From Rhodothermus marinus DSM 4252 (lineage in GTDB: Bacteria > Bacteroidota > Rhodothermia > Rhodothermales > Rhodothermaceae): a DNA stretch of 64,000 bases. Location: NCBI RefSeq assembly GCF_000024845.1, contig NC_013501.1:810001-874000 (forward strand), given 5' to 3'. A program made the position numbers and the translations under genes. The notes below the pieces were generated by a model. It was not told the origin of the DNA. It worked only from the letters and a program-made list of their open reading frames with translations, and did no database searches. Of this stretch, positions 7,812-49,802 are shown piece after piece (within the stretch, counting starts at the first letter, position 1; each line of letters opens with the position of its first letter).

Positions 7812-8610
7812 GACGGAAGCGCTCGACATCCCGAAGCGTCCGCCCGAAGGCGTCGGCCGCGCGTTTTTCGAGAAAGCCGGCGGACTGGTGCTGTTCATGG
7901 GCCGGTTCTTCCGGGACGTGTGGCGGCCGCCCTACGAGGTGCGCGAGCTGATCAACCAGATGGACGAAGCCGGCTCGAAAAGCTTCATCCTGACGGCCGT
8001 TACGGGCATTGCCATCGGCGTGGTGCTGGCCATGCAGAGCCGGGGCACGCTCGCCCGCTTCGGGGCCGAGGCGGTGCTGCCCAACATGCTGGCGCTGTCG
8101 GTCTTCAAAGAGATCGGGCCGGTCATCACGTCGCTGGTGCTGGCCGGACGCCTCGGGGCAGGGATGGCCGCCGAGATCGGCTCGATGCGCGTGACCGAGC
8201 AGATCGACGCGCTGGAGGTGGCCGCGCTCAAGCCCTTTCACTACCTGGTGATCACGCGCGTGGTGGCCTGCATCGTGATGTTTCCGGTGCTGACGACCTG
8301 GACGAACATGATCGCACTGGCCGGGGGCTACGTCGAGTCGGTCATCTCGGCCGACATGGACTACCGGCTATTCTGGAACAGCGCTTTTTCGAGCCTGCGC
8401 TTTTCGGACCTGATCGTCGATACGCTCAAAACCAGCGTGTTTGGTTTTCTGGTGGGGATCGTAAGCTGCTACCTGGGCTACACGGTGCGGGGTGGCACGC
8501 GCGAAGTCGGGCAGGCGGCCATGCAGGCCGTGGTGATCTCGTCGCTGCTGATTCTGCTGGCCGACGTCGTCGTCGTGCGCATTTCGCTGTTCCTTTTCGG
8601 GGCGCTGTGA
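7801..8610 (+). CDS. mlaE: MlaE family ABC transporter permease (lipid asymmetry system)
   Basis: This 269-residue permease has about five hydrophobic segments and the MlaE hallmarks: an EIGPVIT segment, a GAGMAAEIGSMRVTEQIDALE block, and a polytopic C-terminus. In known Mla systems two copies form the membrane core that drives phospholipid transfer between inner and outer membranes. The next two genes encode the matching ATPase and MCE protein, giving a compact mlaE-mlaF-mlaD set. The start lies inside the last codons of tamB, implying co-translation. I see no mlaA, mlaB or mlaC gene in the window. Confidence 0.92.
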   Translation: MPTETEALDIPKRPPEGVGRAFFEKAGGLVLFMGRFFRDVWRPPYEVRELINQMDEAGSKSFILTAVTGIAIGVVLAMQSRGTLARFGAEAVLPNMLALSVFKEIGPVITSLVLAGRLGAGMAAEIGSMRVTEQIDALEVAALKPFHYLVITRVVACIVMFPVLTTWTNMIALAGGYVESVISADMDYRLFWNSAFSSLRFSDLIVDTLKTSVFGFLVGIVSCYLGYTVRGGTREVGQAAMQAVVISSLLILLADVVVVRISLFLFGAL

Positions 8611-44837: not shown

Positions 44838-44866
44838 TTGACATCTGGGCCATTTGCACGTTAATT
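44838..44866 (+). promoter_or_regulatory. Predicted sigma70-like promoter of the ilv-leu operon
   Basis: TTGACA (44838-44843) and TTAATT (44861-44866) are separated by 17 bases and lie 36 bases upstream of the leader-peptide ATG. The -35 is perfect; the -10 matches three to four of six positions. Confidence 0.55.
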
Positions 44867-44902
44867 AGGCCACACGTTGCACGCAAAAGCTGAAAGGTTT
44901 TT

Positions 44903-45103
44903 ATGTCACACGGACGTCACCGGATGAACACAGTGGCTGCGTGCGGTCAGGCGACCGCGCTGGTGACGTCGTGGGCCCATCCCTTTGATCAGGGGATGAC
45001 CGCGCGAGTACAGCAGGTTGTAGCCGGGAGCAGCCTCCGACTTCGGGCGCTGCCGCTGCTCCTTATTGGCCTGCTCGTACTCATTATTGGCCTTATTGGC
45101 TGA
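44903..45103 (+). CDS. Predicted branched-chain amino acid leader peptide (attenuator ORF)
   Basis: This 66-codon ORF lies directly before ilvB and is preceded by AAAGG five bases before the ATG. Its last 17 residues (LPLLLIGLLVLIIGLIG) contain 13 Leu, Ile or Val, and the ORF ends 142 bases before the ilvB start. This is the layout of ilv/leu leader peptides, in which ribosome stalling at BCAA codons reports starvation. The codons used include CTC, CTT, GTA and ATT. The DNA contains TTATTGGC three times within the codon run. A second ATG at 44924 would give a shorter peptide. The alternative is a small hydrophobic membrane protein. Confidence 0.65.
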   Translation: MSHGRHRMNTVAACGQATALVTSWAHPFDQGMTARVQQVVAGSSLRLRALPLLLIGLLVLIIGLIG

Positions 45104-45113
45104 TACGCACGGC

Positions 45114-45182
45114 GGTCAATCCCCTTGGCACTTCACAGGTAGGGCGGTTCAGAAGCGCTTGAGGCCGGGGGATTGACCCCGG
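45114..45182 (+). promoter_or_regulatory. Mutually exclusive RNA stems between the leader peptide and ilvB
   Basis: GGTCAATCCCC (45114-45124) pairs perfectly with GGGGATTGACC (45168-45178), an 11-bp long-range stem that begins 11 bases after the leader stop codon. A competing local hairpin, CCGGGG (45165-45170) with CCCCGG (45177-45182), uses the same downstream bases. Only one can form. This is the expected logic of an attenuation switch, although no T-run follows, so termination would be Rho-dependent or control would be at translation. Confidence 0.5.
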
Positions 45183-45245
45183 AAGCCAGACCGAGCGAAC
45201 CAGAAAACCAGACCAATTTTCACCGTCCAAGCCTGTGAGGTAGCC

Positions 45246-47039
45246 ATGCGTACCGACACGATCCCGCTGGTCCGATCTGCCCGTCCGGCCCTGAGCGCCG
45301 AAGGCGAGCCTGTGGCCGCATCCACCGAACCCGTGACCGGCGCCGAAATCTTCGTACGGTCGCTGGAGGCCGAGGGCGTCGAGATCGTCTTCGGGCATCC
45401 CGGCGGCGCCGTCATCCACATCTACGACGAAATCGCCCGCCTCAAGCCGCGCTTTCAGCACATCCTTGTACGCCATGAGCAGGGCGGCACGCACATGGCC
45501 GAAGGCTATGCCAAGGCCACGGGGCGTGTGGGTACGGTACTGGTCACCAGCGGACCCGGAGCCACCAACACGGTCACGGGCATCGCTGACGCCTACATGG
45601 ACTCGGTGCCCATCGTGGTCTTCACCGGTCAGGTGCCCACCAAACTGATCGGCAACGACGCCTTCCAGGAAACCGACACGATGGGGATCACGCGCTCGAT
45701 CACGAAGCACAGCTTCCTGGTGCGCGACGTGCGCGATCTGGCCTGGACGATCAAGGCCGCCTATCACATTGCGCGCACGGGGCGTCCGGGGCCTGTGGTG
45801 GTGGACCTGCCCAAAGACGTGTTGCTGGCAAAGGCACCTTTTGCCTATCCGGAGGAGGTTCACCTGCGGGGCTACAGGCTGCCGGGGCCGCCAGATCCGG
45901 AACGCATCCGGGAAGCGGCGGAGCTGATCGCCGCGTCGCGGCGACCGCTGCTCTACGTGGGGGGCGGCACGATCAACGCGAACGCGGCCGACCTGCTGAC
46001 TCAACTGGCCCGAAAGGCCCGCATCCCGGTCACTACGACCCTGCACGGGCTGGGCGCCTTCCCGGAAGACGATCCGCTCGCGCTGGGCATGCTGGGCATG
46101 CACGGCACCTGGTACGCCAACCAGGCCGTGCAGCACGCCGACCTGATCATCGCCGTGGGCGCGCGCTTCGACGACCGGGTGACCGGCCGCGTCGATTCCT
46201 GGGCGCCCTATGCGAAGGTGATCCACATCGACATCGACCCGTCCTGCATCTCGAAGAACGTCCCGGTCGACTGCGCCATCGTGGGCGACGTGCGCGAGGT
46301 GCTGGAGCAGTTGCTCCCGCTGGTGGAGCCCAAAGACACGAAAGAATGGCTGGCCAAGATCGAGTACTGGCGCGCCGAGTGCCCGCTCACCTATGAAAAA
46401 GGCGATGGCAAGCTGCGGGCGCAATACGTCATCGAACGCATCCGCGCCAAGACGGGCGGCCACGCCGTAGTGGTCTCCGACGTGGGGCAGCATCAGATGT
46501 GGACGGCCCAGTACTTCCGCTTCCTGCACCCGCGTACGCACATCACTTCAGGCGGGCTGGGCACGATGGGCTTTGCCCTGCCGGCCGCCATCGGCGCTGC
46601 CTTCGGGCTGCGCGGACGAAGCGACTGGCCGGTGGTCTGCATCAGCGGCGACGGCGGGTTCGTGATGAACGCCCAGGAGCTGGGCGTGGCCGCGGCGCAT
46701 CGCCTGCCCATCAAAGTGGCCATCATCAACAACAATTTCCTGGGCATGGTCCGGCAGTGGCAGGAGCTGTTCCACGAAAACCGGTTCAGCCACACGGACC
46801 TGTCCGACACGAACCCGGACTTCGTCAAGCTGGCCGAGGCATTCCACTGCGTGGGCCTGCGGGCTACCCGGCCCGAAGAGGTCGATGCCGTGCTGGACGA
46901 GGCCTGGAAGGTGAACGATCGGCCCGTTGTGATCGACTTTCGGGTGGTGAAGGAAGAACTGGTCTTCCCGATGGTGCCGGCCGGCGCTTCGACCAGCGAA
47001 ATGATCACCAAGCGTCTCACCCCTAACGCTTTTGTCTGA
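45246..47039 (+). CDS. ilvB: Acetolactate synthase large subunit
   Basis: This 597-residue ThDP enzyme has an EGVEIVFGHPGGAV N-terminal domain, the catalytic glutamate in RHEQGGTHMAEGYAKATG, the VTSGPGATN loop, and the ThDP/Mg motif GDGGFVMNAQELGVAA ending IINNN. It joins two pyruvates to acetolactate (valine/leucine) or pyruvate and 2-oxobutyrate (isoleucine). An N-terminal extension of about 25 residues precedes the conserved domain. The gene follows the leader region and is followed after 8 bases by ilvN, its regulatory partner. Confidence 0.96.
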   Translation: MRTDTIPLVRSARPALSAEGEPVAASTEPVTGAEIFVRSLEAEGVEIVFGHPGGAVIHIYDEIARLKPRFQHILVRHEQGGTHMAEGYAKATGRVGTVLVTSGPGATNTVTGIADAYMDSVPIVVFTGQVPTKLIGNDAFQETDTMGITRSITKHSFLVRDVRDLAWTIKAAYHIARTGRPGPVVVDLPKDVLLAKAPFAYPEEVHLRGYRLPGPPDPERIREAAELIAASRRPLLYVGGGTINANAADLLTQLARKARIPVTTTLHGLGAFPEDDPLALGMLGMHGTWYANQAVQHADLIIAVGARFDDRVTGRVDSWAPYAKVIHIDIDPSCISKNVPVDCAIVGDVREVLEQLLPLVEPKDTKEWLAKIEYWRAECPLTYEKGDGKLRAQYVIERIRAKTGGHAVVVSDVGQHQMWTAQYFRFLHPRTHITSGGLGTMGFALPAAIGAAFGLRGRSDWPVVCISGDGGFVMNAQELGVAAAHRLPIKVAIINNNFLGMVRQWQELFHENRFSHTDLSDTNPDFVKLAEAFHCVGLRATRPEEVDAVLDEAWKVNDRPVVIDFRVVKEELVFPMVPAGASTSEMITKRLTPNAFV

Positions 47040-47047
47040 GGTGCGCC

Positions 47048-49802
<2,755 letters not shown>

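Follow-up and report, generated by a model that had tools for sequence, protein, structure and literature searches.

A branched-chain amino acid leader ORF and conserved RNA segments upstream of ilvB in Rhodothermus marinus and relatives: a candidate translational attenuator

Leader-peptide attenuation responsive to branched-chain amino acids (BCAA) is strongly supported by comparative sequence analysis for ilvB of Rhodothermus marinus DSM 4252, within the 64,000 nucleotides that were analysed as a whole and are called the window here. The preferred reading, with a probability of roughly 0.7, is a ribosome-sensed translational attenuation of the ilv-leu cluster that would resemble the erm attenuators, switch kinetically and possibly involve polarity by Rho. 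By comparison of genomes, a BCAA-tailed ORF, both of two mutually exclusive predicted pairings, a predicted pairing to the start site and a relay ORF are established. The features of the window are as follows.

44838-44867, + strand: putative promoter, TTGACA-N17-TTAATTA, a block conserved in 5/6 aligned genomes of the genus
44903-45103, + strand: leader ORF with the BCAA run abutting its stop; ATG and tail are kept in the genus
44913-44970, + strand: hairpin within the leader ORF, GACGTCACC / GGTGACGTC, with perfect 9-bp arms
44992-45006, + strand: segment 1, GGGGATGACCGCGCG, inside the ORF and 5' of the BCAA run, with lineage-specific complementarity to segment 2
45050-45100, + strand: regulatory codon run, 13/17 Leu/Ile/Val, at the same place relative to the stop in other lineages
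45112-45124, + strand: segment 2, GCGGTCAATCCCC, 8 nt past the leader stop; a conserved core with segment 1 or 3 as partner
45125-45139, + strand: anti-Shine-Dalgarno arm, TTGGCACTTCACAGG, predicted to pair with 45232-45245
45165-45182, + strand: local hairpin 3:4, CCGGGG-GATTGA-CCCCGG; a hairpin centred on segment 3 occurs in 29/29 sequences
45168-45178, + strand: segment 3, GGGGATTGACC, 11 bp perfectly paired with segment 2, with covariation
45232-45248, + strand: Shine-Dalgarno sequence and start codon of ilvB; by its unpaired probability, the Shine-Dalgarno is sequestered in the predicted OFF fold
45246-47039, + strand: ilvB, the predicted first regulated gene (TIGR00118, 782 bits)

The original prediction of a 66-codon ORF with 13 Leu, Ile or Val among its last 17 residues was recomputed and is correct, as is the distance of 142 nt between its stop and the ilvB ATG at 45246. 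Of the 1371 ORF tails in the window, counted in all six frames with a minimum of 17 aa, only the tail of this ORF (MSHG...RALPLLLIGLLVLIIGLIG*) reaches 13 L/I/V. The repeated codon motif was also found as claimed, with CCTTATTGGC/CATTATTGGC counted three times in the run, and the position of the regulatory codons directly at the stop recurs in other lineages. Leader tails are dense in L/I/V over about 11 codons: each of the positions 3 to 13, counted back from the stop, has a fraction of 0.62-0.96 (background 0.25), and this density declines further upstream. The codon preference of the run is the inverse of that of the window genes, with rare codons enriched: ATT makes up 83% of the Ile codons in the run and 10% in window genes, CTT 48% and 3% of the Leu codons, respectively. 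An NCBIfam search with the 66-aa ORF gave no match.

The ATG at 44903 aligns in six genus genomes and is preceded by GAAAGG in the window. A second in-frame ATG at 44996, also aligned across the genus, was rejected as the true start since its adjoining GGGG is too close for a Shine-Dalgarno sequence, whereas 44903 has GAAAGG at good spacing. The start at 44903 is thus favoured without being proven. The proposed sigma70-like promoter is only partly borne out: TTGACA at 44838-44843 is followed by a 17-nt spacer and TTAATT(A), and the TTGACA-N17-(T)TAATTA block aligns in five of the six genus genomes in which the region was aligned, but a strict consensus promoter scan did not flag 44838-44867. 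The sixth and most divergent genome has TTGATC and GTAATTA at this block.

The leader lies upstream of ilvB in 7/7 genus genomes. In the DNA alignment of the genus, conservation is seen at the promoter-like block, at the start and the BCAA tail of the ORF and in several RNA blocks, and the remaining ORF drifts. Synonymous sites are kept in conserved blocks inside the leader ORF (CATCCC...GGGATGACCGC), which argues for selection at the RNA level; the core of segment 1 is likewise invariant in the genus, synonymous sites included. The arms of the hairpin at 44913-44970 change jointly to GACGCCACC / GGTGGCGTC in two relatives.

Two mutually exclusive pairings, 1:2 and 2:3, surround the leader ORF, with segment 2 common to both. 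In the leaders of the order Rhodothermales, segment 2 has the form CGGYCAAUCCC about 9 nt after the stop, and segment 3 (GGGAUUGRCC) lies some 30-50 nt 3' of it. Segment 2 is likewise complementary to segment 1 (GGGAUUGnCCGU), which lies in the ORF, either ahead of the run or where the run begins. Helix 2:3 contains a compensatory change, one pair being UA in 10 sequences and CG in 9, and its covariation score was reached by 0/500 shuffles, a result that was repeated on a wider set. In a lineage-swap test on 28 genomes, the fit of each genome's own segment 2 to the ORF and to the downstream region was compared with that of the segment 2 of other genomes. The observed sum was reached in 0/5000 permutations for 1:2 and in 0/5000 for 2:3, counts that overstate independence because the sequences are related; a far-upstream control gave 2572/5000. 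In single genomes, 1:2 beats dinucleotide shuffles of the ORF in 14/28 and is therefore weak in some lineages, most of all in families f15 and f13. The arms of hairpin 3:4 differ between families, and 12/29 beat shuffles at 0.05. The original prediction had found the BCAA leader and missed the RNA segments downstream of it, which carry more weight as evidence. A GCACYUC loop after segment 2 (window 45128-45136) is conserved between families outside helix 2:3; it is predicted to pair with the Shine-Dalgarno sequence in the window, and resembles the 3' end of 16S rRNA.

IlvB is present in 79/114 genomes of the order, and the ilvB upstream regions of 76 of these 79 were inspected. A BCAA-tailed ORF precedes ilvB in families f1 (all), f15 (6/6), f8 (3/3) and f10, in many f12 genomes and in one f3 genome. 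A covariance model of the RNA 3' of the leader stop alone, which is blind to the peptide, matched 37/114 order genomes, in practice with one site apiece, and a broader model matched 48/114. In f4, f7 and f13, the sites precede ilvD instead of ilvB, and the ORF ending there is BCAA-tailed; the same holds for f6 and additional f13 genomes. Where ilvD is the first operon gene, the RNA site and the BCAA-tailed ORF thus precede ilvD. Since the model could select neither the peptide nor the gene, these ilvD-linked sites with BCAA tails are an independent confirmation. No site was found by the models in many order genomes (f3 genus g3, f11, f14). Weak second matches occurred in G001 and G020 and a further match in G076; a match in G009 (E 0.017) was discarded as spurious, there being no BCAA ORF.

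Outside the order, the broader model matched 10 genomes in an even sample of 394 phylum genomes. Nine of them have BCAA-tailed leaders before ilvD-like starts; the exception, G291, has no BCAA-tailed leader, and its match was considered spurious. A Calditrichota MAG (L012, titled Caldithrix abyssi) carries the same core before ilvD, with the tail LPLDVLLLLGIIIISLLISILLIG*. Balneolota leaders (L015, L020, L022) keep the layout with other arms, CCAGAGGTYA / TGACCTCTGG.

Several individual leaders deviate from this layout or have additional elements. The RNA core is present in G068 (f12; L126, G068:C1 about 8170-8345), where an in-frame insertion of ~102 nt appears to lie between the BCAA run on one side and the leader stop with segment 2 on the other. 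In other Bacteroidota (L227, L231, L232, L206), an extra hairpin between segment 3 and ilvD (e.g. TCTGAA...TTCAGAGG) encloses the ilvD Shine-Dalgarno sequence, and several of these leaders share TATATCTG. In G030 (L199 786-973, - strand), the opposite strand carries a SAM riboswitch (RF00162, 72 bits) upstream of the ilvD leader.

In the window, ilvB is followed on the same strand by ilvN, ilvC, leuB, leuA, leuC-like, leuD-like and cimA (NCBIfam). One leader would therefore sense all three end products of the cluster. The ilvN gene (47048-47675) is frameshifted in the window into a 181-aa ORF and an overlapping 64-aa ORF. Five relatives, among them the closely similar G002, have an intact ilvN of 206-208 aa; the frameshift may be an assembly error or a real mutation.

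From this arrangement we infer the stalling, the translational output, the part of Rho and the kinetics of the ilv leader as follows. The leader ORF would be translated, and a shortage of charged Leu, Ile or Val tRNA would stall ribosomes between segments 1 and 2, within the codon run at the end of the ORF. A stalled ribosome would separate these two segments and leave segment 2, about 9 nt past the stop, free to pair with segment 3, which would break the downstream hairpin and open the next translation start, that is, ilvB in the window and ilvD or the short relay ORF in relatives. With ample amino acids, ribosomes would finish and depart, 1:2 would form, and 3:4 together with an outer stem would shut the Shine-Dalgarno sequence or the start codon. 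The message that goes unused may then be subject to Rho-dependent polarity and be cut; a rho gene is present. The run ending at the stop and segment 2 following about 9 nt on fit this model, since a ribosome anywhere in the run would leave segment 2 free, and one at the stop would cover its first bases only. Segment 1 lies mostly 50-95 nt upstream of the leader stop, so that a stalled ribosome would hinder 1:2 and not cover segment 1.

The closure of the start site was assessed by folding in silico. For the window, the unpaired probability of the ilvB Shine-Dalgarno is 0.00 with segment 2 taken and 0.27 with 2:3 formed. Across the genus, its predicted openness at 37 C is 0.00-0.01 in the closed fold vs 0.14-0.34 with 2:3, and at 65 C 0.01-0.10 vs 0.24-0.43. 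Openness of the start codon is predicted at 0.55 with 2:3 enforced vs 0.30 with segment 2 taken, and is higher with 2:3 in 22/28 sequences. The predicted closures differ between lineages: the ilvB Shine-Dalgarno region in the window (CCUGUGAGGUAGCC), the ilvD start in f4 (CGCAUGG:CCAUGCG), GGCAUC:GAUGCC in f15 and CAGGUAUCG:CGAUGCCUG in f12. The loop pairs better with the start region of its own lineage than with those of other lineages (0/5000, and 9/3000 with one sequence per family). In the genus, the closed element is the Shine-Dalgarno and not the AUG, and sequestration of the start codon is weak in silico in f13, f3 and f6. In equilibrium folding, placing a ribosome on the stop or within the run barely shifts the openness of the start (0.34, 0.38, 0.32). 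The closed start hairpin is usually favoured over 2:3 at equilibrium, and the switch is visible only when 2:3 is forced or segment 2 is removed. Therefore, the switch has to be kinetic; as modelled here, kinetic switching would be the weakest link of the mechanism, and it is an assumption made for other attenuators as well.

The start codon that is closed in f12, f15, f10 and one f3 genome is not that of ilvB and opens a short ORF. In 17/17 sequences, which are not independent as two families supply most of them, the end of this relay ORF falls between -60 and +25 nt relative to the ilvB start, and it often overlaps ilvB; the other two frames end there in 3/17 and 0/17. The ilvB of f8 and the ilvD of f4, f6, f7 and f13 start at about the equivalent place, some 60-95 nt past the leader stop, and ilvB in f1 starts 113-149 nt past it. 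The use of a start codon at a conserved place by different frames is hard to explain if transcription alone were controlled.

These observations bear on the alternatives to translational attenuation. Ribosome sensing could have Rho-dependent termination as its main output, as in tnaC, with the start-site structures being secondary. This would agree with the presence of rho, with the C-rich sequence after segment 3 in some leaders and with the relay ORF which, read as translated, fills the gap before ilvB in several families. Alone, however, it does not explain the lineage-specific pairing to the start region, and it is regarded as unlikely.

Transcription attenuation in the manner of E. coli ilvGMEDA or trp, with 3:4 as an intrinsic terminator and 2:3 as an antiterminator, would account for the control codons, 1:2, 2:3 and the local 3:4, all of which form the classical layout. 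It leaves the start-site pairing and the relay ORF unexplained, however, and 0/28 Rhodothermales sequences have a U-tract, taken as at least 5 T within 8 nt, in the stretch from segment 3 to the start. A terminator scan of the window region found none either, so that an intrinsic terminator at the ilv leader was rejected on both the scan and the T counts. AT-rich sites in Bacteroidota and Balneolota are also without a U-tract directly after segment 3. The missing U-tract is not a habit of the organism, because the genus uses a U6 terminator for trp: upstream of trpE in the window genome (L256/L258, G000:C1 about 1191860-1192040), a leader, MRHVAYHSAHYFGWWWFSPAAVGRARA, with three consecutive TGG is followed by a 10-bp hairpin (GCCCACCGC...GCGGTGGGC) and TTTTTT just before the trpE ATG. 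This element is kept in six genus genomes, in one with compensatory changes of the arms, and is by its sequence a classical trp attenuator. Terminator-based control of the ilv leader is therefore rated as quite improbable. From the classical ilv/leu logic that had been proposed for this leader, the BCAA leader and the 1:2 and 2:3 pairings stand, and sequestration of the start site appears to take the place of the terminator.

A protein- or ligand-binding, riboswitch-like RNA element with an incidental peptide would be suggested by the conservation of the GCACYUC loop between families. This reading has very little probability since nearly all lineages examined have the BCAA tail together with the RNA, and the codons directly adjoin the RNA. 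In addition, no Rfam family matches the leader at the gathering score or at E up to 5, which led to the rejection of a known riboswitch or T-box. To read the leader ORF as a short membrane protein, or as a hydrophobic frame arisen by chance, with no regulatory role is hardly credible and largely contradicted: its tail is hydrophobic like a membrane helix, but the ORF tail is conserved in relatives without conservation of the whole protein, the amino-terminal part differs between families while the BCAA tail and stop position are kept, the codons of the run are the genome's rare ones, and the ORF is linked to a co-varying RNA and to whichever BCAA gene leads the operon.

Ribosome-sensed control of amino acid synthesis is a textbook mechanism that was worked out mostly in Proteobacteria and Actinobacteria. 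The RNA core shared by Rhodothermales, other Bacteroidota families and a Calditrichota genome, for which Rfam holds no family, suggests that the system is old in this region of the tree. Whether it constitutes one family across Bacteroidota and Calditrichota, with the core GGGAUUGnCCGU / CGGYCAAUCCC / GGGAUUGRCC, gating of the start site without terminating transcription and a relay ORF to ilvB, appears evenly balanced. The likely translational output is uncommon for amino acid operons, and the relay ORFs would be a natural case of control passed on via a second small ORF. Attenuation is not unique to the ilv operon in the genus, which has the trp attenuator, nor is the ilv system to the genus, as it occurs in other Bacteroidota. 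Since the genus has trp with and ilv without a U-tract, the difference is directly testable in one host.

The claim that leader-peptide attenuation is undescribed in Rhodothermota has to be narrowed. For the phylum, a single sentence in the main text of PMC9723704 suggests it for Flavobacterium psychrophilum; that text describes neither the anatomy nor a conserved RNA and takes the control to act on transcription elongation. The kind of system, ribosome-sensed BCAA attenuation, is already known. A search of open-licence papers found no description of the RNA core, the translational output or the relay ORF, which does not settle priority. Attenuators in Bacteroidetes/Chlorobi were reportedly predicted by Vitreschak 2004 and Lopatovskaya 2010. 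As far as their descriptions go, the F. psychrophilum and Bacteroidetes/Chlorobi attenuators resemble the ilv leader in belonging to amino acid operons of the same phylum or its neighbours. Some of the ilvD sites found here may be those meant by the earlier Bacteroidetes predictions.

The E. coli ilvGMEDA, ilvBN and leu operons are classical ribosome-mediated transcription attenuators. With the classical ilv/leu attenuators, the leader shares the BCAA codons before ilv and the exclusive pairings 1:2, 2:3 and 3:4. Unlike them, it has no U-tract terminator, its 3:4 is longer and so shuts the start site that follows, its codon run ends at the stop, and segment 1 lies 5' of the run. Attenuators of this classical kind are also described for M. 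tuberculosis ilvB1NC (PMC13236596) and C. glutamicum ilvBNC (PMC11857589).

In the LEU element of actinobacterial leuA, leucine codons pair with the Shine-Dalgarno sequence, a pseudoknot was proposed, and codon mutations did not fit classical attenuation (PMC1262725). A leader ORF with a run (of leucine there), alternative folds and Shine-Dalgarno sequestration are common to both. Here, however, a separate arm past the stop pairs with the start site and not the codons, the predicted partner of the Shine-Dalgarno being 45125-45139.

Translation attenuation by cysteine leader ORFs of M. smegmatis is cited in PMC13236596. As cited there, these leaders likewise combine an amino-acid-sensing ORF with a translational output, which is the presumed output of the ilv leader, and they differ in sensing cysteine and in belonging to another phylum. 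To our knowledge, no conserved 1/2/3 RNA accompanies the mycobacterial cysteine leaders.

In its presumed output, the ilv leader resembles the erm translational attenuators, in which a ribosome stalled in the leader ORF changes the hairpins so that the next start becomes accessible, as outlined in PMC8274638 and PMC5118997. In the ilv leader, the alternative fold also sequesters the next Shine-Dalgarno sequence or start codon in silico, and stalling would free the next start site in the same way. In contrast to erm as outlined in these papers, the ilv leader would respond to scarcity of three amino acids and not to an antibiotic, control a biosynthetic operon and, in several families, act through a relay ORF.
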